Origin: Liolophura sinensis
Lineage: Eukaryota; Mollusca; Polyplacophora; Chitonida; Chitonidae
Assembly (NCBI RefSeq): GCF_032854445.1
Contig: NC_088302.1
Coordinates: 13,761,338-13,825,337, forward strand
Direction: 5' to 3'
DNA: 64,000 nt
Within the stretch, counting starts at the first letter, position 1. Every line of letters starts with the position of its first letter. The notes under the pieces are model-generated. The model had not been told where the DNA came from and searched no databases. It saw nothing but the letters and a program-made list of their open reading frames with translations. Shown in pieces: positions 15,621-47,985 of the stretch. Both the position numbers and the translations under genes were made by a program.

Positions 15621-17040
15621 TCTGTCGGGAAACCATCACATTTTCCTCCATTTTCCGGTCCCATGATGTTGATGGTTGAAGAAACCTGCTATAGACTATA
15701 GTGAAACCCTCAAACTCTTGACAACTTCTTGGGGTTGTTTATGGGTGGAGGAAACGGCCTGCTGTAATGTGCAGTGAAACCATCAGATAATTGATGACGT
15801 TAGGTTAAAGAATAGAAACCTGGTAAAATCTGTAAGCAAACCATTACATTTCCTGAAAGCCTTCTTGCGTTAGATTGGTGTGTTGGAAAAACCTGTTATA
15901 GTATACCGGGAAACCTAAACTTCCTGACAACTTAAAGATATTGGAAAAAACCTGGTAAAGAATGTAGGGAAACCATCACGCGCCTTGACACTCTCATGAC
16001 ATTAGGTTGATGGGTAGAGGAACCTAGGAATAATATAAGATTTTAGATAATATATAATTAAATCTATTGGGAATCCAACATATCTGCTGACAAACCGCTG
16101 ACCTCATTAAGGTAGACGAAACCCGGTAAAGTGTTTAGGGGAAGCCTTCTGACAACCTCTTGACCTTATAAGGGTGAAAAAACCCTAGCAAATTTTATAG
16201 GGAAACCACAAAACCTCCTGACGACATTATGACGTCAGATTAATGAGTGGGGTAAACCTGCTAAAGTGTACAGGGAAGCCACGAAAAATCCTTACAATCT
16301 GATGACGATATAAGGGTTAAGGAAAACTGGTAAAGTGTATAAGGAAACCACAAAGCTTCCTGACAATCTCCTGACGTTATACGGGTGGAAAAAACCTACT
16401 AATGTTTATAGGGAAACCACAAAACCTCTTGAAAACCACATGACGCCAGGTTGGTGAGTGGAGGAAACCTGGTAAAGTGTATAGGGAAACCACAAAACCT
16501 ACTGACAATGTGCTGACGTTATAAGAGTGAAAGAAACCTGGTAAAGTGTATAGGGAAACCACAAAGCCTACTGACAATGTGCTGACGTTATAAGAGTGAA
16601 AGAAACCTGGTAAAGTGTATAGGGAAACCACAAAGCCTACTGACAATGTGCTGACGTTATAAGAGTGAAAGAAACCTGGTAAAGTGTATAGGGAAACCAC
16701 AAAGCCTACTGACAATCTGCTGACGTTATAAGAGTGGAAGAAACCTGGTAAAGTGTATAGGGAAACCACAAAGCCTACTGACAATGTGCTGACGTTATAA
16801 GAGTGGAGGAAACCTGGTAAAGTGTATAGGGAAACCACAAAACCTCATAAAGTTTACAGAGAAATCACAAAACCTCCTGACAACCTTGATGGGTGGAGGA
16901 AACCTGGTAAATGATATAGGATAAGCATCACACCTCATGACAAATTTATAATGTTAGATTTACGGGTGAAAGCTTACGTGTAAATGAAAACTGTCCTAAA
17001 ACGTCTTGACTTAATAAGATGATGGGGTGAAGGAGACTTT
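15598..17040 (-). repeat. 69-bp minisatellite with degenerate flanks
   Basis: The core at about 16440-16850 has near-identical 69-bp units (starting for example at 16504 and 16573) containing GAAACCTGGTAAAGTGTATA and GGGAAACCACAAA. Increasingly diverged units extend on both sides to about 15600 and 17040. A 153-codon minus-strand ORF with a 23-residue repeat is a by-product of the period (69 = 3 x 23). Confidence 0.9.
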
Positions 17041-23156: not shown

Positions 23157-26100
23157 ATGGGAGGCTGTTGTTCGGCCCAGGTAAATAATTTTCTAACCCT
23201 GAAAGTTTTTCAAAACCATGATCGGAGCAGAATGTCTATTGACGTCTATGAAGTCAGCCGAAATGACAAGCTGTTGTTGTTGTAGTAGTGTCATTGTTTT
23301 TTTTTTTTTACCATTGGATCTTGTTAATTTTTTGTAAATGGCAGCTCCGTCCACATTTAATTAGACGCATTATACGAGCGACACAAGACAAACATAGAAC
23401 ATGAACGTAGAATATGAAACTAAGGCAGATGTAATACATACACTGTGGGACTAATGACTGATATTAGTCCTAGGCCCGAAAGTGTCCAACTCCTTTTCTT
23501 ATACTGGCCTACCGTCACGAAGCGAAGGTAACGAAAGTCAATGCCAATTGTCTTTGTTAGTGAACAAGCATCAAAGACCTGCTTTCCGCACCCACTGCAC
23601 GGCCACCATATGCCCCTACATATGCATGCTTTTGCAATAGATTTATTATAGGCATGAAGGCCTCCACGGCCACTGCAGCCATGATGAGCAGGACACTGCT
23701 TCCACTGCTTCCCACTGTTCCACAACGAGCAGGACATGCGTGTTGTTGGAGTCTTGATGCTAGGCCAGTATAAGAAAAGGATTTTTAGTCTCTCAGACTT
23801 ATAAAAGTCCCAGATACACTCTACTTACCTGAGGTTTCTCTGACGATATATTTGACAAAATTCTGCTCTGCCAGAAATGGCCCCAAACCAACATCAGAGA
23901 GTGCCCCATTTAAAAACCTGATGCAGTTACCTGCATGTGTCAAATATATGGAGGCTGTCAGTACAGCCGTTTGCTTTGAGCATCACCATGCGGTCAAAGT
24001 GGATGGTGTGCCAGTGCAGCTTAATGACATGTAGGGCTGAGCCTCTCACCAATGTGGTCGCTGTTAGTTCAAGTCCAGCTCATGGGCTCGTGGGAAGGTC
24101 TGCCAGCAGTCTGCGCATGGTCGTGCCTTCTGCCCAGTTTTCTTCCACCATAATGCTGGCTGCTGTGGTATAGTTGAAATATTTTATGAGTACAATGCAA
24201 AACACCTATAAAATAAATAAATAAATATTTGCTGTGTAATAAAAGTTTTACTTTAAAAGTTTTCATTGAGAAAGTCATTTGTCATGATAAAGAGGTGATC
24301 ACATTAATCATGTGACTGTTTTACTTTGCAAAAAATATGCTTCTGTAGCTTAACAATAAATCTAATTACTGATTGAAAAGATGGTTTCTGTATTTACATG
24401 AGATGTATTTCTCAGAAGTAGGAAAATCATAACCATACAAGTGAAACAACCTGTAAACTGGACTTTTTTGGAAAGAATTTAAATACTCATTAATATTTTG
24501 ACTATTACTTTTGCAGGTGGCCTGTTTTTGTGGCCCGTCCCCGTGTACTCTGTGCTGTCAATGCTGTCCTCCAATCAATGAGTCAACCAGTACTCGGATC
24601 ATGTACACCATCCTGCTCATCATTGGCTTTGGTATAGCTTGTCTCATGCTCACACCACAGTTCCAACACGTACTCATTGAAACTGTAAGTATTTCTTATT
24701 TTATTTGCAGAGAATAACAATTGAATGTGAGGATGGCAATGTTCAAGAGTATTAAATATTTGCTGCTGCAAATTTCACAAATATTGACAACAGATCGCCT
24801 GCTCGCATGGTAGCCTTCAGGCGAGCGTATCATAGATGACAGTTTAAGAAGTCATTATTTAAACTTACTAATTTATTTATTTGATATGAGTTTTGTGCCC
24901 TGCTCAAGAATATTTCACTTAGTTGATGGTGGCCAGCAGGAAGAAACCGAGCAGAGCCCTGATGAAACCCACAACCATCCGCAGGTTTCAGTATGCAAAT
25001 ACATGCATTGTGCTCATTAACATATTTAAACAAATGGAACCCTCTTTACTTTGAGGAATCTATAAATATTATCAGTATTGGGTGTAATAGTTACAAATTA
25101 AATTTTCTCTCTTTCAGATACCCGAGTTCAATGTGACCTGTGTTCAGCTGAATGCAGGGGAGAACTGTGACAAGCTGACTGGATACAAAGCTGTGTACAG
25201 ACTTTGTGCCGGGATGGTAGCGTTCCACTTTGTCTTACTCCTCATAGTGGTTTTACCCTGTATATCCACCAGTAACAGCTGGAGAGCAGAAATACATAAT
25301 GGGTAAGAATTGTCTCCTCCTTTTTTGTTCATGAATATTGCTAAGTTTATGTCATAGGAGAGCAAAGAACACTGCAGTCAGCTTTGCACACAATCCTTTT
25401 CAGTATAAACTTATCCTGTCTTGAATGAATGAGAAAGAAAATGTTTTGTATTCGTGTGTGGAAAAGAAGAACTTTGGTTGCAGTGTTTATTCAAAATCTG
25501 TTGTGTCTTTGTATTACATTTAAATTTCTTGCATACATTACACATTTACAGCATATTTTTTGCACTGTAGATCTTTACATATACTAATGGAAAAAAGTAA
25601 CTGTGCATCACAGAAAATGGGACAAAACAAAAGATGTTTGAAAAGTTATAAACCTAACCGTCAATAAACATTTAGCCAAGCATTTTTCATGAAATGTCAT
25701 GTCACGTATCGCGCGTGGCACGTGCACCTCATGTATAATGACATGACTCACATCCTGCATGATGTTTGACACATGAAGTTCACACACCTGATTTCGAAAA
25801 TTGAAGAACTGTTGATTATTCTTTAGCCTCTAAATGTTGTGGAAAACACGTTAACTTCAACATAAATTGTGCGTACAACATGCCACGGCTTACAGAAAAT
25901 CAGCGTCTCCGCGCCGTGGGTATGCTGGAGACTGGAATGGCCCAGAATGAAGTTGCCAGACATTTTGGTGTCCATCGAAACACGATATCCTCTCTATGGC
26001 GACGTTTTCAACAGAATGGGAACACGAGAGATTTGCCCCGGTCCGGCCGTCCACGTGTGACGTCACGTCAGCAAGACAACCATATTCGGCTGACCCATCT

Positions 26101-29100
26101 AAGGAATCGATTCCAGAGTTCCAGTTTGACTGCTCGGACCATTCCTGACTTACGCCCAATCAGTTCCAGGACTGTACGGAACCGACTGCGGGAGCGCAAC
26201 ATCCGGCCCAGACGTCCTGCCATACGTCCGATTTTGCTCCAACGTCACCGACAGGCACGTCTTGTCTGGTGCAGACAACATCTACGGTACAGGAGACAAG
26301 ATTGGGATGGTGTTCTGTTCACTGACGAGTCGAGATTTCATCTGGACGGCTCAGATGGCAGGGCAAGGGTGTACAGACGTCCTGGTGAACAGTATGCTGA
26401 CGCGTGCGTTGTTCAACGTCGAGCGTTTGGTGGCGGCAGCGTTATGGTATGGGGAGGCATCACATCTCATGGGCGGACACAACTTGTCATTGTGAATGGC
26501 AATCTGACAGGCCTGCGATACAGGGACGAGATCATTCTGCCTCATGTGCAAGCGTTCATTCAAGGACATGGACGTAACATCACACTTCAGCAAGATAATG
26601 CCCGTCCACATGTCGCTCGTGTTGTGACGGATTTCTTGAGACAGCACAACATTCCGGTACTCCCTTGGCCAGCAGTTTCTCCTGACCTGTCCCCTATCGA
26701 GCACGCATGGGATGAAATGGAACGGCGATTACGTCAGGGCCCGAATAAGCCATTGACGTTAGCTGATTTGGGACAAATGTTGCTTCAGACATGGAACAAC
26801 ATTCCCCAAGCTTTCTTCACTCGCTTAGTGTCGTCTATGCGTCGTCGTTGTCAAGCCTGCATCAGCGCCAGTGGTGGACACATACGATATTGAGTTTGTG
26901 AACTGACTTTTGACACCACATCTCTTCGAGGGCGTATCATGATGCCTAGTGTCAAATCATAAAGATTTCGAGATTATCCTGTCAACAGTTAAACAGTGAT
27001 TAAACAGAATACCAAAAATCATATTCTTATCTTAATTCATTAGAGCATGGCATAACTGCAGATGATGCACAGTTACTTTATTCCAGTAGTATATTATTCT
27101 GTTGAATTGGAACCAGGGAAGCTGTTTTTCTTATTGTTGGAGATGGACATGTATGTTTCTCAATACAGCACAGTTTTTCTTACAGAAAACATGACGTACA
27201 TCACTTGTTTTCCATACATCATGTGGAAACAGCACTCTTTTTCCATACATTATGTACATGTACATTCAGAAACAGTGCTGTTTTCCTATATATGTGGATA
27301 CAGCACAATGTTTTCTGTGCATATGGTAACTGCTGTTTTCCAATACATGTGGAAACAGCACTCTTTTTCCATACATTATGTACATGTACATTCAGAAACA
27401 GTGCTGTTTCCCTGTATATGTGGATACAGCACAATGTTTTCTGTGCATATGGTAACTGCTGTTTTCCAATACATGGGGGATACAGCACTCTTTTTCCATA
27501 CATCATGTACATGTACATTCAGAAACAGTGCTGTTTTCCTATATATGTGGATACAGCACAATGTTTTCCATACATATGGTAACTGCTGTTTTCCAATACA
27601 TGTGGATACAGCACTCTTTTTCCATACATCATGTACATGTACATTCAGAAACAGTGCTGTTTTCCTATATATGTGGATACAGCACTGATTGTTTTCATGC
27701 ATGCAGGCACAGCAAGGTTGTGTACAGCTGCAGTTGTATGACTGATATTAAATATAATGACGATGACAATGTACATAAAGTTAATAAGTGGTCAGAAGTA
27801 TATAAGTTATCTGATTATAACATCAGGAGAAATTGTCTGCTCAGTTGAGACGTGTCAGCTCTGAACCCTCGGTTTTAGAGTACAAAAATATGATATTGAT
27901 ATTGCTGTTGAACTGTACTCTTTACTTGTATCAATGCTGGTATATAAGTAGCCTCTGTGTCAGCCAGCAGTCTGGCTGTACAAATACCTTTTCTGATCAG
28001 TGTACTAATGATGTTGACCAATAGTAATGAAAGTCAACCCTGGCATACATACACTTGTATCTGTATAATTGTACTTCCTATACCCTTGGGTGTCAGGCCT
28101 AATGGTCCAATGGCTGGACATTGCCTCTGTATGCAAGGCCATCCTTAAAAATTCTTTGTTGGGTGTAACCCAAGGTTGAGCCTTTCTGAAAAATATGATA
28201 GCCCTATAAATACATAGAGTTTATTTTCTTTTATTATTCTGGCTATTAAATTGATGATGATAGGGATTTTGAAAGAAATTTACATCAGAGAGAAAAATAA
28301 CAGCTGTCTAAATTTTTGAAGTAGGGCTCTCTTTTTTTTTTGGTTGGTCAGGTTAGGCCTAACTAACAGATTTTTTAATGGTGACCCAGTCCACATGGAT
28401 GTTGATTTGTGCTTATCTTTTTCCTCACTGATCAGCTTTACAGATTTTAAAGTGACCTTTAGCTTCAATGTCAGAAGGTTGTTTCTAATAGAGTTCTTGG
28501 AAACAGATCTGTATCACAGTGGATATTAATGCAGGATATATGTGTCTGTGGTTACTGTATCTTCCACTTAATACGTCTGTAATGGTGTGCGTATAAAATT
28601 AGTCTCAGTATGTGTTCAAGAGGATATCACCATTAAGTTGATTTACCCTTGTACTACATGTACTGTAGTCATATTATTTATAATTAAATATGACTATGAG
28701 TCATATTTTTATGAGGTGACATATACTTTTAGCAGTTTCTCAGCAAAGTTACATTAACTAGGAAAAAAACAAACAAACAAAACAAGAACACCCTCCCCCT
28801 CATCCCAATAAATCTGATTTGATAATATGTATTACTTGGAGCAAAAACTCTTACTTGAACAGTACATTACTACATGTATTATGAAAGGCCAGAAGATCCA
28901 AGTTCTGTACAATAGGCATGAATGTGCACACTCATTTGTATGCATGCCACACATATTCTCACAATACATTACTGTATACATTACATGAATCTTTGTTCGC
29001 ATACTGTACGACATATAAACATTTTTTTTTTACGTCCAACATTTCCCTGAACACATAGAATGTGTCAGCTGTGTTAATAAGCAAACTGCTAACTCTAAAT

Positions 29101-31152: not shown

Positions 31153-34100
31153 GTCATGAAATCTTAATGCATATATGTACGGCCTAGCCTTGGCTATTAA
31201 GACATCAAGAATTATAAATGTCAGCTTCTCTCAGATGTTTAGAATCCTCTAACAGTCTTCTGATCTGATCCCTCTTTAATAGATCTACCTATTAGTATAA
31301 TCCAGCAGAAATCCATTACAACTTATCAGTAGCAGATTTTAATGTTTGTACCTCTTTTGTATATGGTCACGCTCACCCAGAATTTACATTATTTTTAAGG
31401 TGCATTTATTGTATTACGTTGGAAATTTCCTGTAATTATGTAAAGTAATTCCTGTTAATTTCTTATTATTTGATGTTGTGTATATATTGGAATTAGCTGC
31501 AGCCTTTATAATTAGGAAACACTGGAGAATCATTTGATGACTGTAATTCTTCAACCTTTTTGGATGTTTGCAAGATGTGTATTTAAGCAAATTCTGAAGG
31601 CATTATTCTCTGTAGAGTGATAAATTTATACTTTTCGAGAAGTCCTGAAATCCGCCAATCCAATCAATGTAGTTCTGTCACCAAAAACAAATCATAGGTG
31701 TGGATAAATTGCTCTGAGAGTTGCTCTTTCATATGCTAAAAGGTTGAGGAATTAGGGTGTAGGCATTAGCAAGATATAGCTACATGTATGTTGCTTTTCT
31801 GTATCACCAGCTTAGAACACAGGTACTGTATATGCACTTCTGAACACAAGCTCTTGGAATTACTTCTTTGTGATAAAAACAACATGATGTGCAGTGACTG
31901 ACAAGCCTTCTCATTTGTTCTGTTTGCACTGTTACGCACCCACTCACTCAAAAACATATGTAGAGACAATTATATCTAGATGATAATGATTTCAATTTTT
32001 GACACAGAAGACTGGACTGATCTATATGGCTCAATTATATACTGTATATCTTTTTTTGTGTTTTTTTGTCACATGTACAAAGTACAGGCCTGGCTTATGT
32101 AGTGCCCGGCGTGGTGTCGGCGTCCAATAACAAGGAAAGCAATGTTAAAGAAAATGTTAGGAGTGGTGTCTCATAAATTACATATGTCAAGCACAATAGC
32201 ATGGTTAAATATTACTGAATTCCTGACTTTGTGTGTTGTATATTTTGAAATCAGTGTTAAACAAAATGTTAGGGGTGGTATCTCACTGCATTTGCTGGGC
32301 TCAGGGCTTACACACATGTAGAGCACAATAGCATGAGGGGGATATTCCATCGTTGGTACACTGTGTGCATGTGACATACCGTAAATTACTGAATTCCTGT
32401 ATTATGTATTAGAATCAAGGTAATCAAAATGTTAGGTGTGGTATTTCAAAAAGTACTGCATTTATTGTCCTCAGGGTTTACACACATGTAGATCACAATA
32501 GCATGAGGGGGGATATTCCATCGTTGGTATGCTGTGTACATATTAAATGCCCAGAATAACTGAACTCATGACTTAATGTATTGTGTATTAGAATCAAGGT
32601 AAATGAAATGTTAGGAGTGAGATCTCAAACTGTACAGAATGTATTGACCTGAAATTTTACATGCATATGAAGCCCAATGACACAAGGGGGATGTTCCATT
32701 GGTGATGCTCTGTGTGCATATTAATACCGTAAATTACCAAATTCACGATATCAGCACTTCATGTAATGAGCTGAAGTTTTGCATTCTTGTGCCTCCTACA
32801 GGCGAGCTCTTTGGTAGCCTAGCTACCAAATCAAATTTTTCTTTTGTTTGTAAATTTGCTTTATATTATAGTATTTGTTGACATTGTACATGGAAGGTTT
32901 ATGGTGGAAAAGGAAGGAAAGGCTTGTGTCAACTTTACCACCCAGGACTATCATCGTCCAATAACTCTGTTCTGGAAATCAAACATTTCCATACATTTAC
33001 GGTGTATTTCTAATCAGGAAAATTTGAGAGGCAAATGGTAATGCATGTATATGTAGTTCATGTGGTTCGCAGGCTTCTGATTTCATTTCATGTTGTGGTT
33101 GTGTTCTACTATAGAGAAATAGATGAAATTTCTGTCTCAGCCTAATTTTTGTCATCTTTTCTGCTCTGTTCAAAAGGTACTGGTTGTTCAAGTTTGTGGG
33201 GATATGTGCTTTGTGTGGTGGAGCTTTCCACTTACCAATCAACTTTGGGCTAGGTAAGACACATTGCTAATATGAAAACATAATACATGTACATATGTAC
33301 GTGTCTGTTGGTGCTGTGGTGAGAAGTAGCCCTGTGTGTGTTCATCTGTGTGTGGTGGTAAATGGTATCACATATATATGTAGTTGTACCATGCACCATG
33401 CAATCTGGCTGTAGACTGGGCAGCGACTGAGAGAGGGAATAACGTGCCTACCTGTCATTTGCTGGGTATACAAGGTGCAGGTTCAAAACCAGTGTTGGAC
33501 AGGGAATTTGGGGATTCCTCCTCTCACACTAATTATTGTGGTAATTTGGTGACACTAACCTGTCCACAATGCTCATGGGGCCGTCTGCATATTCTAATGT
33601 TCATTAAAGTCCACTTGTCTGCCACGGATATTGGTACATGTATTCATGTCGCACTTTAATAGAAAAGTTCATAAAACACTTTCGTTGGTTTAACCCGGGC
33701 TCTCCAGCAACCTGCGGATGGTCGTGGGTTTCTCCCAGGCTCTTCTCGGTTTCAACCCACCATAATGCTGGCAGCCATCATATAAGTGAAATATTCTTGA
33801 GTACAGCATAAAACACCAATCAAACAAATAAATGCTGATTCATGATTTTGTACTGAGTACTGTTACAAACTAAAATTAAGTGGGTTTGCTGTGATTTGAA
33901 AATACATACATGCCCTTAACGATATATGGGTATATGCCCATCTACAGTACCTGCAAGATGAGGAACACATGCAGTCATTAGAGTTACGAATGTATATTCA
34001 GTGAGATTAGCCAGGGAATTTTATAATTAAATTAGTGGTTTATCTTTGTTTTATTTGAAACTGAAATACAATTCCTGGGCTGTCCAAGAGGGTTGACACC

Positions 34101-37100
34101 CTTAATACCCCCTCCATAAATATGCCAACAGAAATATAGGGTAAATCAAGAAACCTCAATGCCTCTGTAGCCCTTACGTGAAAATTCTGCTTGGCTAGTT
34201 TTGTATTTAGTTCCAACGTGACAGGTTGTTCATGAAGTAGTTATGCGCCTTTTTTTCATTTTAAAAAAAGGCGATTTTACCTGCATATGTATGGATTGAG
34301 GTAAACGAGAAAAAAACAAAGGAAAAATGTGATTTTGAGTTGAAAATATGTATGCTATGAGTTATCCTCTAGCACTTATTATGTCAGGTACAGGTTAAGT
34401 GTGTGACTATATTAAAATTTATATGTATGTATAGATTTATTCTTGATATGATTTATGTATAAGTGGACTTAATAGTATAAAGTGTGTGCTTGTCTGTTTC
34501 AGTGTGGATGTATGTAGGGATGGTTGGTGGGTTTTGCTTCCTCATATTGCAGCTTATTTTATTGGTGGACTTTGCCCATTCCTGGAATGCCAGCTGGTAA
34601 GACAAATCGAGTTCTGTATTATACATACATAATATGATATTTATGACTGATACATACACACAGTGCAGACTGTTATTTTATTGCTACACTTTGCTCATTC
34701 CTTGAATGCCAACTGGTGAGAAAATCCAGAAAAATAAATTATGTAGGCCTATTTTTGTGAGAGGTCCTGACACAAGCAGTGTAGACTATGATATTTATTG
34801 TGAACAAACACAAGTGTTTAGAGGTTTAAGACCAGAGTGTGGTACACATAGTTGTGTGCTACTCGCCAATCCCAGCCTTGGACAGGAAATTTGTAGATTT
34901 TTCCTTTAACTTCGTAGGGTCTTGCTGAAAATAAGCATTGGATGACAGTTGTAAGACCATTTGCTGCGTCTAATGGCTTGGTGAAGACCACTTGGGTGAG
35001 GATATCTGTGCATAATATGTGGGAAAGTTCATCACAAACTTGCCAGAGTCTGGTGGATTAGGCCAGACATTCCAGCTTTAAAATTTCAGCTCCACACTTA
35101 AAAAAAACTGACAGCCGTGGTGTATGAAGTGAAAAATTTTTGAAGTGAAGTAATTGTTGAACAACAATCAAGCACATGTGCATGTAAAGATATCAGCCAA
35201 TCAACCCCCAGGAGTGTAGCTGTTGTTGAGGGGGATGTGGGCGTATCAGTATTCAGGCGTTTCATGTACATGTATATCACTGTGATGCATGAGCTCCCAC
35301 ACCCTACACTTCATATACAGAATCAAAACTTGTCTATAATTTACAGCTTTATTTTCGCTCTAATGTCTACTTTATCATTAAAATATTGTGGGGATTTCTT
35401 CTCTGCACTACAAGAGTTACAAATGTCATGAATGTGTATGGAAATCAACTCTTGATCTTTACTGTTATTTTTTCTTGAACAGGACTGGCAGCAGGCATGG
35501 GCGGAAAAATAATTTAGGATTTGCAGGTACGTGCATTTTTGTTTAAATTTGTATTTAAATATTTTGTATAGGTTGTCTATCCAACTTTAATACAAATAGT
35601 AAATTGTATTTATGCTTAGTAAATACAGATATAACGAAAAAAGATATGTGTATTTGATTTTCCGTTGTTTGTGCACATGTATAATAAGTTTTCATGCATA
35701 TGTATAGGATGGTAAGCTTAAAGTGTTTAAATCAAATACATGTATAAGTATTAACATTTCTGGTTATCTGTTGTTGTATGACCATTGCTGTCTCATGAGC
35801 ACAGACTGTCCTGTTTTATTTATATAAAGGTTGAGACTGCAGTGGAATGCAATGTGCAACAATGTAGAAAATGTAGATTTTTTGATTGTATCCACTGTAT
35901 ACATGTGTACACCTATATTTAGATTTAAAGGTGGAGAAAACATAAAAATGACATAAAGTTCAAATGAAAGAGTGTGAAAAGTTATTTCTGAGTGTGGCCT
36001 TCAAGATTTTTTCCGATTTTTCCTTAAGGAGAAAAAGACACTTGAAAATAATGTTTGAACAGTGGGTATTTGGGACCACCTTTTGGTATTTATAGTCTTT
36101 GTTTAATAATGTCATAAATGAGGATGTAACACAGGTTTAATAAATATTTTGTACTAGAATTTGATCTTTTCAGCTAACAAATGCATTAAACCTCAATTTG
36201 GATCATATTTATATTTTTAATATGTTCCTAAATATTATCATTATTTAGGTTAAATGCATATATTTCGATATAAACAACAGATTTACATTCAAGCAAATTT
36301 ATTAGACAAGCATCACATTTTTATTTAGAACATTATCATGCAACAACGATAAATACCAAAAGTTGGTCCCAAATACCCACCATACAAAAATATTTTCAAA
36401 CACTCTTTTCTCTTGAAAAAAAAATCCCCCAAAATATTAAAAGATCATATTTCCAAATAAGTTTTGACACTCTTTCATCTGATTTTGGCATCATTTTTAT
36501 GTTTTCTTCTCCTTTAAAGAAGAAAATGTACCACAGTACCAGATGTAATATGTATTTAGTGTTTTACTGACGATATTATCACTACCTCTTTACAGGGACC
36601 ATTCTATGTTCAGTGTTTTTCTTCATGGCCTCCATCGTTGGCTCGGTGTTATTGTTTGTATTTTACACCCGCCATGATGGCTGCGAAACCAACAAAGTGT
36701 TTATAGGAGTAAATGCTGGGCTATGTGTTGTCATGACCTTCCTCACCTTAATGCCCTGCACACAAACTAGTAAGTACATCTACAACATTACATTTAATAG
36801 TGACAGTAAATTATAGTAAGTTAACGGATACATGTTAGGATACATGAGTTTTGAGTTCAAACACTTTTGTTGTTAAAGGTAAAAATATTCCTTCTATATT
36901 ATATGACTATATCATGTGAAGTTCAAGTCAAGATCATGCCTGTTTTCTTCTCCAGCCGTACGTGAGGAGATCTGTCAGCAACCTGCGGATGGTTGTGGGT
37001 TTCCCCCCGGGGTTTGCTTCATTCTCTCCCACCATAATGCTGGGCACTGTTGAATAAATAAAGTATTCTTGAGTACTGCGTAAAACACAAATCAAATAAA

Positions 37101-40100
37101 TAAATAAATCAACTGACTTGTTAAAAATGTTAGTTAACTTTTTTTGACATTATTTTACACACAGATGACAGGAACTTCTTGAGCTTACAAACACTTCTCA
37201 ATTTTTTTATCTTTCCTCAACTCTAAATGACTTTTTGTGAAATTTTTTTTTCCGGTGCCCATGTTATAGTGAATGCAATCAAAAATAGTTGCCTAATATT
37301 TGTGAAAGGTCACATCGTTCAGTAGGACCTTTTTTACCTTCAGCGATGGAAGAGTCAGATCAAGATACTCTCATATTAGTTTACATTTCTTTATATGCAG
37401 TAGTATTCATATGTTCAGCTATTTCTTGCTGGTCACAAATGACAGACATCATTTTCATGTAACAGTTATCATGTTTGTTATCTAATGTGTTTCAAAGCTG
37501 CCAACTCATTTTAGTATCAATATTGTGTTACATTTGTATACGTATGTTGTAATGCTGCTTGTCATGTGTTACAGATGTGTCTGTGGTGTATATTTGCAGC
37601 TAACCCCAATGCCAGTTTCCTGCAGGCTTCTCTCATCAGCTTATATGTTGTCTACCTCACCTGGTCCTCTCTATCCAGTGAACCACCTGAGGAAAGTGAG
37701 CGACATTATTATATCCCCTTTAATAGTCTGAATGGTTATTGGTTTAAGCCATATTATGCTCAGGAAAGTTTCATTTCAATGATGGCAGTTTGGGCCTAGT
37801 GAGGTTATTGCTGTTGGCTGATCAGCCAATCAGCCAATCAGCACCTATGGAAATGACATGTGAGTTCATACAAGATGGAGGCTACATGTACCTAAGATGT
37901 AACACAACTTTTTGAGGTCACATGATGACTTTGAACGTATCGTGTGACCGTCTTCAAAAATGGACAGCAAATGTTGCTCAAGTGTGGGTAATTTATATTG
38001 CAGGTCATTTGACACTGGGATCTAAAAGTCTTATTTTCAACAACTACATGTAATATTGTCCGTGTGTCCGGCTTTAAGGGTCATTAAGCTGACTGTAATC
38101 AGTCTTTGGAAAGAATTGACCAGGCTTTTACAAAAGTAAAACTGTGTAAAGCTTAGCCAGCTTATCATGGCTTACCCTGTTGGCTGTTTGGCTGTTCTGA
38201 TTTGCAGCAAACTGATTTGTAGAAGAATTCATGATGATAATTGTTCAATTGACTTGAAAATATAAATAAATTAAGCTACTGTGTATAAGTATCACAGAAA
38301 GATATTTTCTTCTTCATTTTCGTTTATGACAAAGTTGATAAACGAAGGGCGATAACTCTCACAAGAGACAGTCAAACCAAAACAACAGATGCCTGGTGCG
38401 TTTTCAGCTTTAAAATGACCTTCATTTGCTGATTAAAGCTGATTTATTCTTATTTTTCCAAAATCAATAAATAAACTTTCTAAAATGGGACTGATAACAC
38501 TTTTAAAGCCAAATTTGTTTCCTTGTACATGTCCAAGCCACACATGAGGATTAAAGGCTTTCGGGCTATCCTTCGAAATCTAAGACAAAAAGCTTTAGTC
38601 GCTAGCCAAATATTTTCTTTGGTGAAAAGGGGTAGTCAAAATTACTAGTCGTCTAACTGAGTTAGCCATCTAAGCTTAGCTTGGAGACTTTTTGCGAGAC
38701 GCGTCCCTGTGCCTATTGGTCATCAGTGGGAAAGACTAATCCAACTACTTGTACATGTAGCTCTCATTCTCCACTTTGTTCGTCTCTTTTTCCCAGTGAC
38801 AGCTTTCAATAACATACAGGCTAGCGCTTCAGCACAAACAGCTGGTACCAAGAAGCCTATGTCCATCTCTGGACCGGGCCAGTCATTCACCACGTTAAAC
38901 ATGACAGGTCACATGTGTCGCCCGGCGCCTTCCTTCGCCCACGGTGACCTCATCTCAGCCTATGCTGGACTACTAATAATGTTCATTATGGCCATATATG
39001 CCAGGTAGGCTCATTGATTTTTATTTTATAATGCAACCACATTGCACAGTAGAAGAAAAAAAAACATTGATCAGTTGTATTATATTCTGCTCAGAAGCAT
39101 GGTAAATATCCATGTTTGTTGTTTTTATATATTTCTTTTGTGAATAACTTCATTCAAAATTTTTCTTTCATCATTTATTGCATACATGCAGTGCGTTTTT
39201 AAAGGTAAAAGAAGAGTTTTCTGTGTTTCATTGTTGATCTGGCACTCATTCTGTTTATGGTTGTCATTGATCTGCTTGTGCAATAATTCAGAAATGTATG
39301 CAAGGCACTGGATAATGACATGTGTCACTGTAATGTAGAGTATTGTCTTTCATCTAAAGTCTAACATTTTTCAGTTCTCAGATTTTGCTTGATTCTGATC
39401 AATTCACATCAGTTTTTTTGTGAAATTTGATTAACTTTGAATGAGAGAACGTCAAGCGTTTGCATCAAAATTATTATTTTAAGGCGTTTATGTGCGTTCA
39501 AAAATCTGATACTTTAGGTGAAATATAATGGTCCAAATTATGACCAGGACTAATATGACATTAATTAAGATTTTTGTAAACGATCATCTGTGTATATTAG
39601 TATGGCGGCTCTAGCTATTTTCTTTTATTTCCTGCATTCAGTCTCCGGACATCCCATGAAGCTCACAAGTTAGGCATTCCCAGACGTAGACAAGTGGTAA
39701 GTTTTCTTCTGCATTATACATCACTGCGCTTCTGTTGTACAAAATATTTGGATAGACTGCCCCTCTGTTTTGTAAAGTTGATTACAGTCATTATATGTGT
39801 ACATTGTTTTGTATAAGGTTTCAATACAGTTTCTGTTATAAATTTAATAGTCTAATTAATTTGTAGGTTCTTGGAATGATAGTTTGTTGACCAAAAAAAA
39901 AAAAAAAATTGATTCTTTCTTTGTTTCACTTCTCCACAGATAAACACCTGCTGTTGTTGTTGCACTATAACCAAACGTACGTATCAAAGTTTAAATAAAT
40001 GGCTGCATTTGATGAGCCATGTACTATTTGATTGTTTTTCTACATTGAAGTTATTAAGATAATTTGACTTTTACTGTGCTGCAGTGGTCAGATTAGCGAA

Positions 40101-43100
40101 GTTTACCAAGGGACAGTGGATTTTAAGAAATCTGATGACTAAAACAGCAGGTATAAAACCAGTGGGTGCTACCGTAATGACCCGAAATATTTGACCGAAA
40201 TGTCAGCCAACCAACGCTTCCCCGGTTGTCTGAAGTTTACCAGCTACATTGTATCAGTGAATGCACAACACAGAAGACGTTTTTTTTCCGTTCACAGCCC
40301 CATAAGTGTTGTCTTTATCACCTTTGACAACTTCGTAATTTATTTATTTTTTAAATATTTGAGTACGCTCGCTTGGCTACAGTTTGACACCTCCTCACCT
40401 AAATTTCCACACAATGTTATGTTATTTTTTAAAAATTCTGTGGGGCAATACAGTGCAAGATACAATCATTTCAGCAGTATCTTGACATAAATTTACAAGT
40501 GACTATATTTTCTGGAATGGAATTTAAATGTTTTTGTACTTTATAATCTCATTCGTAAATGTCACCAGACATGTACTTCCAGATTAGTTTTTGGGGAAAA
40601 TACTACGGTTGGAAAGTAGACGCTAAGAGCAGCAGATCGTGCAGATTATTACTGCAACTGAGTGAACATATCGTAAATAACATGAAAGATAGAATGGCAA
40701 GTTCGCAAAACCCACCATCTCCAAGGACGGCAGAGAATAGCTTAACCCAACAAGTTTTCCCGATATAATTTTCCAGTAAAGGCGGGTTCTCTGCACACTG
40801 TTGACATTATGCTAGATAGGCCTACATTGGTTCTTCAGGTCAGTCAATGTCTCGTTGAACAGCGACCAGCAGTACTTTCATACTGTGACAGTACAGATTA
40901 AATTCACACCGGGAGGAAATTGCAGATATCTATTGATGATTTCCAGTGGTCAGTTATTTGGGTGGTCAGTGTTTTGTGGTCATTACGGTATGCATAGTTA
41001 ATAAGGACCATATCCAGCCATCGGTTTATATTCACAGTTAAGAAAATAATATGATCCCCAACTTCAATGGTACAAAGCTTCTTCATTTTAATTCACAATT
41101 TCCCCAGGCTGTCACCAATGACATCACATATACATATCTCATATTCTACACCTAGAAGCACAACTATAAACATCCAGTAGTTTCCCGTAAATCTGTTTTT
41201 ACCGTCAAAACCTGACCAGTGTAAAAGGGACATGCTTGACTCCATACGAAATCATGCAAGCAAGTTTAAATATATCTGTGCTCTTCATTAGGAAGTTCAC
41301 CAGAATTAATGCATATAATTGTTAATGAAGCAGTAACTTTTAAGGGTTTGTTTTGTTGTTCATATGTATTTGCAAATTACAAATTACTTGGGCCCTGTTC
41401 CAGAAATAAAGCAACCACAGGCTGTTGAAGTTCACTGGGTATACTGTTGCAACATGGAGTCATTATTGAAACATGTCTTCTTGTAGCTACAATCAACTTT
41501 AATTACCTGTGGCTGTTTTGCCAGTGCTCTAACCTATATATTATGAAAGTCGGATCTAATGGATTTTTCAGGTGACAATCCATCAGAGTTAGGGGGCCAG
41601 AGAGTGATCCTTAATGAGGTGGAGGGAGTGGTCTACAACTATGCCTTCTTCCATGTGGTCTATTTACTGGCAATATTATATGTCATGATGCAGCTGACCA
41701 ACTGGTACAGGTAAGCCTTTCTGTGTGTCATGATACAGCTCACCAACTGGTATAGGTAAGCCTTTCTGTGTGTCATGATGCAGCTGACCAGCTGGTACAG
41801 GTAAGCCTTTCTGTGTGTCATGACACAGCTGACCAGCTGGTACAGGTAAGCTTTTCTTTGTGTCATGATACAGCTGACCAACTGGTACAGGTAAGCCTTT
41901 CTGTGTGTCATGATACAGCTGACCAAACTGGTACAGGTAAGCCTTTCTGTGTGTCATGATGCAGCTGACCAACTGGTACAGGTAAGCCTTTCTTTGTGTC
42001 ATGATACAGCTGACCAACTGGTACAGGTAAGCCTTTCTCTGTCATAATACAGCTGACCAAACTGGTACAGGTAAGCCTTTCTGTGTGTCATGATACAGCT
42101 GACCAACTGGTACAGGTAAGCCTTTCTGAGTGTCATGATGCAGCTGACCAACTGGTACAGGTAAGCCTTTCTCTGTGTCATAATACAGCTGACCAGCTGG
42201 TACAGGTAAGCCTTTGTGTGTGTCACAATACAGCTGACCAACTGGTACAGGTAAGCCTTTCTCTGTGTCATAATACAGCTGACCAACTGGTACAGGTAAG
42301 GCTTTCTCTGTGTCATGATGCAGCTGACCAACTGGTACAGGTAAGCCTTTCTGAGTGTCATGATGCAGCTGACCAACTGGTACAGGTAAGCCTTTCTGAG
42401 TGTCATGATACAGCTGACCAACTGGTACAGGTAAGCCTTTGTATATGTCATAATACAGCTGACCAACTGGTACAGGAAAGCCTTTCTGTGTGTCATAATA
42501 CAGCTGAACAACTGGTACAGGTAAGCCTGTCTGTGTATCATGATACAGCTGACCAACTGGTACAGGTAAGCCTTTCTCTGTGTCATAATACAGCTGACCA
42601 ACTGGTACAGGTAAGCCTTTCTCTGCGTCATAATACAGCTGACCAGCTGGTACAGGTAAGCCTTTCTGTGTGTCATGATGCAGCTGACCAACTGGTACAG
42701 GTAAGCCTTTCTGAGTGTCATGATGCAGCTGACCAACTGGTACAGGTAAGCCTTTCTGTGTGTCATGATACAGCTGACCAACTGGTACAGGTAAGCCTTT
42801 CTGTGTGTCATAATACAGCTGACCAACTGGTACAGGTAAGCCTTTCTCTGCGTCATAATACAGCTGACCAGCTGGTACAGGTAAGCCTTTCTGTGTGTCA
42901 TGATGCAGCTGACCAACTGGTACAGGTAAGCCTTTCTGAGTGTCATGATGCAGCTGACCAACTGGTACAGGTAAGCCTTTCTGTGTGTCATGATACAGCT
43001 GACCAACTGGTACAGGTAAGCCTTTGTATGTGTCACAATACAGCTGACCTACTGGTACAGGTAAGCCTTTCTGAGTGTCATGATGCAGCTGACCAACTAG

Positions 43101-43512
43101 TACAATTAGTTGTGATTATTATTATTTTCTTTGTTTTTGTTTATATTACAAATTATTACTAGTAGGATAACTACGTATCACTCCTATATACAGTATAAAT
43201 ACTTTCTACTGCATGTGACTATGTTGTTGTTGTTGTATTTTTTGCAGGCCTGAGGATTCTGACATTAACCATTTTGGCCTGAACTGGTCAGCTGTTTGGG
43301 TGAAGATAGCCTCCAGCTGGGCATGTATACTCATCTACACATGGACACTATTTGTGCCGCGGTGTTGCCCCGGGAGAGACCTGCGCTTCTTGCACTCACC
43401 CCCTCAGTCTGAAGTGGAAGCGGCCGTGGATGCAAGGGACCCTCTGGAAGCAGAAGAGCTACAGACCAGACAGCCTGGGGTGCCATCTCCAAGCCAAGAA
43501 ACAAACGTGTGA
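23157..43512 (+). CDS. SERINC5: SERINC5-like serine incorporator, 13 exons, complete
   Basis: SERINC proteins are ten-helix membrane proteins linked to serine incorporation into lipids and to lipid scrambling; vertebrate SERINC5 is also an antiretroviral restriction factor. Exons with GT-AG borders: 23157-23180, 24517-24684, 25118-25302, 33177-33253, 34503-34596, 35483-35526, 36596-36769, 37600-37695, 38797-39004, 39642-39696, 39940-39976, 41572-41710, 43248-43512. All phases agree, giving 1566 nt and 521 residues. Family landmarks are MGGCCSAQ followed by [10 protein letters not shown] and STRIMY, then [65 protein letters not shown] and [19 protein letters not shown]. The Cys-rich start and the RCCPGRDL near the end favour SERINC5 over SERINC1-3. 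Exon 9 adds a long polar loop (about 70 codons) and exon 11 carries five consecutive cysteines. The C-terminal tail after the last helix is about 45 residues and acidic. The SERINC family call is very secure; the paralogue number is inferred. Confidence 0.93.
24036..24228 (+). mobile_element. SINE in SERINC intron 1
   Basis: It has box B TTAGTTCAAGTCCAGCTC, body GGTCTGCCAGCAGTCTGC and tail AAATAAATAAATAAAT. The head is truncated. Confidence 0.85.
24872..24990 (-). mobile_element. SINE fragment in SERINC intron 2
   Basis: It has TTTATTTATTTGATATGAG, CTCAAGAATATTTCACTTAG and AACCCACAACCATCCGCAGG, diverged. Confidence 0.8.
25584..27089 (+). mobile_element. Tc1-like (DD34E) DNA transposon, apparently intact
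   Basis: The element is bounded by 27-bp terminal inverted repeats at 25584-25610 and 27063-27089 that match at 25 of 27 positions. Each is flanked by a TA dinucleotide (25582-25583 and 27090-27091), the usual Tc1/mariner target duplication. It encloses one uninterrupted transposase ORF and lies in SERINC intron 3, in the same orientation as the host gene. The near-identical ends and the open ORF suggest a fairly recent insertion. Confidence 0.92.
25880..26893 (+). CDS. Tc1-like transposase, 337 aa
   Basis: This is a cut-and-paste DDE transposase that would bind the terminal repeats and move the element into TA sites. Residues 1-50 form a helix-turn-helix ([17 protein letters not shown], then [16 protein letters not shown]). 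A GRPR hinge motif is at 56-59 and a second helix-turn-helix lies at about 65-110. The catalytic domain shows FTDESRF (D149), a glycine-rich [11 protein letters not shown] box, QQDNARPH (D239) and [11 protein letters not shown] (E274). There are 34 residues between D239 and E274, the DD34E spacing of Tc1. The length of 337 is normal for the family and no stops or frameshifts are present, so it may still be functional. It has no role in SERINC; it is an intronic passenger. Overlapping ORFs in other frames are shadows. Confidence 0.95.
   Translation: MPRLTENQRLRAVGMLETGMAQNEVARHFGVHRNTISSLWRRFQQNGNTRDLPRSGRPRVTSRQQDNHIRLTHLRNRFQSSSLTARTIPDLRPISSRTVRNRLRERNIRPRRPAIRPILLQRHRQARLVWCRQHLRYRRQDWDGVLFTDESRFHLDGSDGRARVYRRPGEQYADACVVQRRAFGGGSVMVWGGITSHGRTQLVIVNGNLTGLRYRDEIILPHVQAFIQGHGRNITLQQDNARPHVARVVTDFLRQHNIPVLPWPAVSPDLSPIEHAWDEMERRLRQGPNKPLTLADLGQMLLQTWNNIPQAFFTRLVSSMRRRCQACISASGGHIRY
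27198..27690 (+). repeat. 126-bp minisatellite in SERINC intron 3
   Basis: Nearly four copies of a unit of about 126 bp, with sub-motifs such as GGAAACAGCACTCTTTTTCC, TACATGTACATTCAGAAACA and TGTGGATACAGCACAATG. Internal half-copies (ATACAGCAC, AACAGTGCTG) show that the unit itself grew from a shorter one. It begins about 110 bases after the Tc1 element. Long ORFs on both strands arise from the period. Confidence 0.9.
31112..31150. repeat. (TA)n microsatellite
   Basis: About 39 bases of uninterrupted TA in SERINC intron 3. Confidence 0.97.
31544..31754 (+). mobile_element. 211-bp TIR MITE, copy 1 (SERINC intron 3)
   Basis: The copy starts TAATTCTTCAACCTTTT and ends AAAAGGTTGAGGAATTA, a 17-bp inverted repeat with one mismatch. 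The interior includes CTGAAGGCATTATTCTCTG and TTGCTCTTTCATATG, shared with the copy at 45160. Confidence 0.75.
32130..32760 (+). repeat. Degenerate tandem repeat of about 175 bp in SERINC intron 3
   Basis: The marker ATATTCCATCGTTGGTA recurs at 32343, 32514 and (as ATGTTCCATTGGTGATG) 32692, giving periods of 171 and 178. The shared blocks AAAATGTTAGG, CACACATGTAGA and CACAATAGCATGAGGG also extend upstream to about 32130. Confidence 0.8.
33400..33660 (+). mobile_element. Second tRNA-like dispersed repeat, SERINC intron 4
   Basis: A box B-like GGTTCAAAACC lies in GGTGCAGGTTCAAAACCAGT, followed by TTGGACAGGGAATTTGGGGA. Related sequence occurs at 34790-35080. The repeat runs up to another SINE at 33696. 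Confidence 0.5.
33696..33832 (+). mobile_element. SINE, 5'-truncated, SERINC intron 4
   Basis: It has CAGCAACCTGCGGATGGTCG, CACCATAATGCTGGCAGCC and tail CAATCAAACAAATAAAT. Confidence 0.85.
34628..34728 (+). repeat. Partial tandem duplicate of SERINC exon 5 end and donor
   Basis: Sequence at 34672-34715 repeats the last 44 or so bases of exon 5 with a few changes and is followed by GTGAGA, so a second donor lies at 34716, 119 bases after the true one at 34597. In the SERINC frame the copy reads [14 protein letters not shown] against [14 protein letters not shown]. Intron sequence around it is duplicated too (a segment near 34630 recurs near 34780). No strong acceptor precedes the copy, so it is probably not a cassette exon. 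Confidence 0.8.
34790..35080 (+). mobile_element. Second tRNA-like dispersed repeat, SERINC intron 5
   Basis: It shares CCAGCCTTGGACAGGAAATT with the 33400 copy (CCAGTGTTGGACAGGGAATT), then continues into TGTGGGAAAGTTCATCACAA and CTTGCCAGAGTCTGGTGG. Confidence 0.45.
35934..36518. mobile_element. 585-bp foldback MITE in SERINC intron 6
   Basis: The two halves are imperfect inverted copies. TTTAAAGG, GAGAAAACATAAAAATGA, AAATGAAAGAGTGTG and TATTTGGGACCA in the left arm (35934-36092) meet their complements in the right arm (36350-36518), and weaker complementarity continues to the centre near 36225. The ends are TTTAAAGG and CCTTTAAA, which fits a TTAA target duplication (35935-35938 and 36514-36517) of the piggyBac/Kolobok kind. 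It has no coding capacity. Confidence 0.8.
36955..37110 (+). mobile_element. SINE, 5'-truncated, SERINC intron 7
   Basis: It has GTCAGCAACCTGCGGATGG, CTCCCACCATAATGCTGG and an (AAATA)n tail. Confidence 0.85.
41391..41520. mobile_element. Diverged hairpin foldback element in SERINC intron 11
   Basis: It begins GGGCCCTGTTCCAG. The left arm CAACCACAGGCTGTTGAAGT and the right arm TAGCTACAATCAACTTTAA, TTACCTGTGGCTGTTTTGCC are complementary with mismatches. The right arm shares TACAATCAACTT with the hairpin at 59033-59161, so both probably belong to one family. Confidence 0.55.
41685..43100 (+). repeat. 45-bp minisatellite built from SERINC exon 12 end plus 5' splice site
   Basis: Thirty-one tandem units plus a degraded final one start inside exon 12 and fill the first 1.4 kb of intron 12. 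Each unit holds CAGCTGACCAACTGGTACAG, the last 20 bases of the exon, then GTAAGCCTTTCTGTGTGTCA and a short link. Donor copies start at 41711, 41756, 41801, 41846, 41891, 41937, 41982, 42027, 42071 and then every 45 bases to 43061. The copy at 42476 reads GAAAG, so 30 of 31 donors keep GTAAG. Because 45 is a multiple of three, long repetitive ORFs appear on both strands and should not be taken as genes. Confidence 0.97.
42612..43061 (+). repeat. 225-bp higher-order repeat within the 45-bp array
   Basis: The order of unit variants (CTCTGCGTCATAA, then CTGTGTGTCATGATG, CTGAGTGTCATGATG, CTGTGTGTCATGATA and one more) occurs twice in succession, starting near 42612 and 42837. This implies that a block of five units was duplicated as a whole. 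Confidence 0.8.
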
Positions 43513-44117: not shown

Positions 44118-44525
44118 ATCATGTGGTTGACACCTGCATGTATTAGACATCGGGTTAACACCTACATGTATTAGACATGTGGTTGACACCTGCAGATATT
44201 AGACATGTGGTTGACATCTCCATGTATTAGACATGTGGTTGACACCTGGGTGTATTAGACATGTGGTTGACATCTGCATGTATTAGACAAGTGGTTGACA
44301 CCTGCATGTATTAGACATGTGGTTGACACCTGCATGTATTAGACATGTGGTTGACACCTGCATGTATTAGACATGTGGTTGACACCTGCATGTATTAGAC
44401 ATGTGGTTGACACCTGCATGTATTAGACATGTGGTTGACACCTGCATGTATTAGACATGTGGTTGACACCTGCATGTATTAGACATGTGGTTGACACCTG
44501 CATGTATTAGATGTGTTGTTGACAT
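44118..44525 (+). repeat. 28-bp minisatellite, about 14 units, downstream of SERINC
   Basis: The unit ATGTGGTTGACACCTGCATG plus TATTAGAC is repeated in tandem. The central units are identical, while the outermost ones carry substitutions such as CGGGTTAACACC. It lies about 600 bases after the SERINC stop, in the possible 3' UTR or just beyond. Confidence 0.95.
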
Positions 44526-47770: not shown

Positions 47771-47898
47771 CTGCAGAAGGTGCAGACATACTGTATTTGG
47801 CTACATCAGTCTCTGCCAGGGAAGGGATACTACATTGACTGTACTTTATACCCGTGTTGTCTGCACTTTCCTGTACAGATACAGGGATACACAAATGA

Positions 47899-47985
47899 CT
47901 GAACTACCCCACACCTGTACTGAACTACCCCACACCTGTACTGAACTACCCCACACCTGTACTGAACTACCCCACACCTGTACTG
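47899..47985 (+). repeat. 21-bp tandem repeat, 4 units
   Basis: The unit CTGAACTACCCCACACCTGT plus A is repeated four times without change. Confidence 0.95.

Follow-up and report, generated by a model that had tools for sequence, protein, structure and literature searches.

A minisatellite covers the end of exon 12 of a SERINC5-like gene and repeats its splice donor about 30 times, which raises the question of how the spliceosome chooses among so many near-identical sites and how such an array can be tolerated. All coordinates of this gene are positions within the window, the whole 64,000-nt stretch of DNA analysed, and the assembly comprises 609 Mb in 632 contigs. The gene is intact in the window: the joined exons 2-13 form 513 codons with zero stops, while exon 1 was not found there. 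Among the 120 protein matches listed, the best are SERINC5-like proteins of molluscs, with identities of up to 54%; PF03348 is the precomputed domain of the SERINC homologues listed, and a query with a partial exon set matched the SERINC3 structure 7ru6 in the PDB at E 1e-69. In alignments, exon 13 corresponds to the C-terminal part of SERINC3 and TMS1, and from the topology it presumably carries the last membrane helix. Additionally, intron 3 contains a plus-strand open frame of 362 codons (25805-26893), which we take to resemble a Tc1/mariner-type transposase, and a SINE-like fragment, presumably mollusc-typical, lies at about 36950-37110 and ends in ATAAATAAATAAAT; similar text is present in loci such as L039 and L053.

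Features of the SERINC gene and its donor array (window positions), and array loci elsewhere in the assembly with their exon assignment.
Feature	Position or locus	Strand	Basis or remark
SERINC exon 2	24517-24684	+	homology, exon edges, open joined frame
SERINC exon 3	25118-25302	+	homology, exon edges, open joined frame
SERINC exon 4	33177-33253	+	homology, exon edges, open joined frame
SERINC exon 5	34503-34596	+	homology, exon edges, open joined frame
SERINC exon 6 (small)	35483-35526	+	homology, exon edges, open joined frame
SERINC exon 7	36596-36769	+	homology, exon edges, open joined frame
SERINC exon 8	37600-37695	+	homology, exon edges, open joined frame
SERINC exon 9	38797-39004	+	homology, exon edges, open joined frame
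SERINC exon 10	39642-39696	+	homology, exon edges, open joined frame
SERINC exon 11	39940-39976	+	homology, exon edges, open joined frame
SERINC exon 12, 139 bp	41572-41710	+	end inside first array unit (LTNWY AG/GTAAG)
SERINC intron 12, with first donor used	41711-43247	+	exon edges
SERINC exon 13, C-terminal stretch	43248-43512	+	acceptor TTTTTTGCAG/G, score 8.1
Tandem array, 45-bp unit, 31 full copies and a stub	41681-43104	+	TRF, unit list
First donor GTAAG, sole one yielding the conserved protein	41711-41715	+	
Copy 2, two private changes, weakest GT donor	41726-41770	+	TAG/GTAAG, -9.4
Copy 18, donor destroyed	42446-42490	+	GAAAG at 42476
Copy 32, truncated, without donor	43076-43104	+	
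ERI2	L045		58 units, 56 with GT; PDB 7n8v E 1e-26
RPC1, i.e. POLR3A	L048		homology E 3e-9
USP deubiquitinase	L047		best match USP8 E 1.2e-5; without Pfam support
Diacylglycerol kinase (DGK)	L049		PF00609 E 1.7e-9; no PDB match
GH31	L050		PF01055 E 3e-13
GTPBP6	L054		E 5.1e-9; Pfam hits only weak
Roc GTPase (weak case)	L063		E 1.2e-4; Pfam Roc below cut-off
TSP1/ADAMTS-like exon (weak case)	L046		PF19030 E 3.5e-4, below cut-off; PDB: one unrelated match, E 0.21
DERA-like, ninth, outside the eight	L051		TIGR00126 E 0.0023, far below cut-off; nothing in Pfam or PDB

The initial annotation had described a roughly 31-fold tandem amplification of the donor at the end of exon 12, and TRF finds just this, with a period of 45, 31.6 copies and 92% matches. 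Its composition of the unit, exon end plus intron start, is likewise correct, except that copy 1 is split into the final 30 bases of exon 12 and 15 bases of intron rather than 26 and 19. Read directly, the unit edges share a short microhomology that blurs the boundary. The 31 units comprise 23 distinct sequences with a mean pairwise identity of 0.924, and exact duplicates unite copies 1, 24 and 29 as well as copies 15, 16, 23 and 28; since copy 1 is among these identical units, the coding end of exon 12 itself looks like part of a homogenising array. As had been counted before, 30 of the 31 units keep the GT donor (GTAAG, from 41711 to 43061), with CAG/GTAAG at 29 unit boundaries and TAG/GTAAG at one; the exception is copy 18. 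The array starts at a real exon end with a donor per unit in 30 of 31 copies, as donor-containing minisatellites of the IFI6/ABCA7 type do.

These donors are strong. The consensus CAG/GTAAGC has a pairing energy of -11.0 kcal/mol with the 5' end of U1. Beyond the array, just 3 of the 4011 GT sites on the plus strand reach this value, which argues that the array donors are not due to chance. The consensus exceeds the six other donors of the gene that were tested (of ten; -4.6 to -10.7), and donor 1 is itself slightly surpassed by the donor of copy 14. Five arrays in the window have a period of 20 or more and over three copies; plus-strand sites at -9 kcal/mol or better number 30 in the SERINC array versus 1 in total in the four others scored. 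A minisatellite with a 28-bp unit repeated 14.5 times lies just downstream of SERINC (44120-44524), and further minisatellites lie at 16142-16846, 27206-27685 and 47898-47985. The unit has only 10-14 base matches elsewhere in the window (E about 1 or more), a search of the 609-Mb assembly reported one match, and no Rfam family matched the window at the gathering threshold.

The choice of donor determines the product. Only donor 1, joined to 43248, reads NWYRPEDSD, and NWYRP at this junction is common to most molluscan relatives compared among the matches listed, with exceptions that include Bulinus and Biomphalaria (YSP), Octopus (HRP) and Patella (YRSVIK). The annotated SERINC protein of Patella caerulea (P0034) ends NWYRSVIK directly after the same exon end, either through a gene model error or as a true truncated form. 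All 29 later donors give NWYR-stop, as retention of intron 12 would, and lose the C terminus encoded by exon 13. The annotation's claims that the correct product needs the first donor and that every later one stops right after exon 12 are thus confirmed, and so is the loss of the C terminus; its further statement that the last helix goes with it rests on membrane topology. The 50-base decay rule is a vertebrate rule, from which Drosophila and C. elegans depart. Measured against it, the stop lies 41 nt before the junction with donor 2 but 86 nt with donor 3 and 1346 nt with donor 30, so that, as previously proposed, a stop more than 50 nt upstream arises from the third copy on, which is the arrangement of a splicing-coupled decay switch.

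Arrays of this kind recur in the same genome. We searched the assembly for three CAGGTAAG spaced 15-45 bases apart, with the one-base variant CAGCTAAG as control together with reversed-letter controls. Such triples numbered 989 for CAGGTAAG and 197 for CAGCTAAG (318 and 34 for the reversed-letter controls), and the first 6.9 Mb of C1 held 14 array loci against 2 for the control. We claim no over-representation of donor arrays from 989 versus 197, because 8-mers differ widely and real donors add CAGGTAAG. Besides SERINC, 32 array loci were examined among the matches listed in three listings, in batches of 14, 4 and 14 (the third listing held 18 places, one cluster being counted as one; L039 had been included previously and three were not taken in). 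In eight of these 32, the array begins where an exon identified by homology ends. After these and the poorly supported DERA-like ninth, six loci (L036, L042, L052, L059, L061, L062) have an exon-like stretch without a supporting family match, and the remaining 17 of the 32 show no clear exon. L057 and L060 gave no match in the family search. The same or a similar donor-motif unit occurs at distant places (C2:109362, C2:176885, C2:2909094; C1:93.91-94.05 Mb), which indicates that the CAGGTAAG arrays include dispersed repeats without a link to exons.

With the first donor of the ERI2 gene, LTGITQ runs on into AQVEDG, collinear with solved ERI2, and all four later donors translated lead to a stop. 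The ERI2-like array (L045:3814-6908) also carries a second GTAAGT inside the exon-derived part in 51 copies, the coding copy reading GTAAGC, and the DGK array (L049 and G000:C3:23271051-23273786) appears to hold about 100 units of 44 bp if it is continuous. The first donor is not always the strongest: that of POLR3A (-8.3) is weaker than 12 of 22 downstream AG/GT sites and stronger than 9, with copies reaching -13.7, and that of GH31 (-8.3) is weaker than all five later copies in the stretch examined, which reach -12.1.

Two readings had been offered for the SERINC array, an expansion hidden by first-donor preference and a length-variable tuner of SERINC output. Since the structure recurs in unrelated genes, the former fits best, and we put at about 0.68 the probability that these minisatellites were seeded by duplications across donors and are tolerated because the spliceosome uses the first one. 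The SERINC array would have originated when a short segment spanning the exon 12 end was duplicated in tandem, and it may then have grown by slippage or unequal exchange until the pre-mRNA presented a series of about 30 near-perfect U1 sites. The spliceosome would pair the exon 12 acceptor with the first downstream donor; with such pairing the 41711-43248 junction is proposed to dominate, the remaining copies leaving as intron, and occasional use of donors 2-3 would give SERINC without the last helix. This genome appears to have repeatedly acquired arrays of this type at the ends of exons and to tolerate them. As a rough thought, random seeding alone should put some arrays over donors if the genome is as rich in minisatellites as the window.

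The simplest mechanism would be exon definition in which the acceptor upstream is paired with the first donor, aided by the order of transcription. Exon 12 measures 139 nt with donor 1 versus 1489 nt with donor 30, and this too should favour early donors. Random choice among 30 donors would make the correct SERINC mRNA rare, and the gene is nonetheless intact. The same argument extends to ERI2, DGK and POLR3A if those genes work, and under that assumption, which we make for the other array genes, position must beat strength in POLR3A and GH31, where the first donor is weaker than copies. Classical experiments with competing equal donors favoured the intron-proximal one, which counts against first-donor use. 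The weakness of the nearest competitor, copy 2 being the weakest of the 30 GT donors, is only suggestive as a single instance (n = 1). RNA structure was rejected as the cause of the choice, as accessibility gives donor 1 no advantage (ranks 28 and 16 of 31); the first ten units fold somewhat better than shuffled sequences (z -2.58, 3 of 100 as good). Bolder, and doubtful in our judgement, is a near-absolute first-donor rule that overrides strength throughout the gene set, with re-splicing in some genes and array length acting as a slow dial of leakiness.

A point absent from the initial annotation is that the units run GT...AG, so that copies could in principle be spliced out between themselves. 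The array would then correct itself through dual-specific splice sites, an error at a distal donor being removed by a second splice from donor 1. The geometry allows it, since joining any donor to the end of a later unit recreates CAG/GTAAG, and CTGAC stands 13 nt (SERINC) and 14 nt (ERI2) upstream of the unit-end AG. Scored with a simple matrix, however, the unit-end acceptors are weak in SERINC (median -1.2, versus -0.4 to 8.1 for the 12 real acceptors of the gene) and ERI2 (-1.0), while those of POLR3A (-5.5) and the DERA-like gene (-4.5) are very weak. The USP array has strong ones, with a median of 8.8 versus 8.1 for SERINC exon 13, and each of its 45-nt units is a complete candidate mini-intron, which makes it a strong candidate for recursive or dual-specific splicing; 24 perfect donors follow from position 743 of this locus (G000:C2:22245800-22248300). 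Given the poor acceptors in POLR3A and SERINC, re-splicing is unlikely to be a general rescue or the common reason for tolerance; it may help in some genes. We consider the self-correcting array improbable. A mid-unit AG was also considered as a microexon acceptor and set aside, such sites being mostly weak (-3.4 to 1.9).

Somewhat less probable still is the tuner, in which distal donors lead to decay or to a truncated unstable protein and copy number sets SERINC output. It accords with the identical stop from every distal SERINC donor, with human SERINC5 isoforms lacking TM10, two of which are described as rapidly degraded (PMC5735641), with the lower expression described for longer ABCA7 arrays (PMC5954066) and with Hps1, where a downstream donor is described as setting decay (PMC4222953). 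The TSP1/ADAMTS-like gene, by contrast, has a read-through that stays open for 369 nt, and a built-in early stop is thus not common to all array genes. Nor are the donor columns of the SERINC unit clearly more conserved than the rest (2/8 versus 17/37 variable, p 0.25; 14-column block permutation p 0.18; p 0.064 for 2/8 versus 23/37 when the units are cut in a different phase). Pooling SERINC, ERI2, USP and DGK gives 8/32 versus 64/155 variable columns (p 0.06); three of the arrays lean to conserved donors, and DGK does not (2/8 versus 8/36). Per cell, donor bases vary in 11/1232 cases versus 280/6111 elsewhere, lower in all four arrays, which is a hint at most, given the dependence among cells and the use of perfect donors to find the arrays. 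Some constraint on later donors could exist, selection on them is not established at a borderline p of 0.06, and the tuner is accordingly unsupported.

Alternatively, the array could serve as a U1-recruiting platform, its many sites strengthening exon 12 definition or blocking premature polyadenylation in the last intron. The 30 strong U1 sites are consistent with this, as are the absence of AATAAA and ATTAAA from intron 12 and the described stimulation of factor binding at an upstream acceptor by a downstream donor (PMC8724738); a single site would suffice, however, and nothing favours more, which leaves this role highly improbable. An assembly artefact is scarcely credible: tandem repeats can be misassembled, yet this array has 23 distinct sequences among 31 units and one match in the whole assembly.

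The choice of the spliceosome among equal donors has been studied with constructs of few sites. Several unrelated genes in which one exon is followed by tens of near-identical donors provide a natural test of this choice. Should the use of the first donor be confirmed, donor strength must rank below order and exon definition in array genes, and were the near-absolute rule true, the gene set would be a natural library for 5' splice site choice. Our data also suggest that in invertebrate genomes rich in repeats, donor-spanning minisatellites may be common and survivable.

Single cases of such arrays are already known, and it is the recurrence over several genes of one genome, with exon sequence in the unit, that looks new; a literature search covering few subscription-journal papers found no description of exon-end donor arrays recurring within a genome. 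The minisatellite of human IFI6 (6-16) reportedly has a 12-nt unit. Like the SERINC array, it is an exon-end minisatellite supplying multiple donors, and two downstream units are described as used besides the first, giving three mRNA species (PMC4526556). Its extra units are described as yielding isoforms, whereas every later SERINC donor yields a stop. The VNTR in ABCA7 intron 18 similarly consists of 25-bp units, the first GT of which serves as the donor of exon 18, and it is described as length-polymorphic, with retention of a single unit (PMC5954066). It concerns a single human gene and starts at the GT, its first unit being without exon sequence, whereas the first SERINC unit includes exon. 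Human SERINC5 short isoforms are described as losing TM10 through alternative splicing, and the accessible part of the paper mentions no donor array (PMC5735641). Internal tandem repeats at human exon-intron boundaries are reported to alter introns, with 27 intron modifications; these are primate segmental duplications, and donor amplification is not singled out in the accessible text (PMC2812944). Tandem duplication of AGGT segments is described as a model of intron gain (PMC4974935). Finally, the dual-specific splice sites described for the UBC and VCX3A repeats, a human precedent for re-splicing between unit boundaries, resemble SERINC in their tandem AGGT at these boundaries; the UBC units are coding, with introns spanning them, while all SERINC units but the first lie inside an existing intron (PMC10809524).
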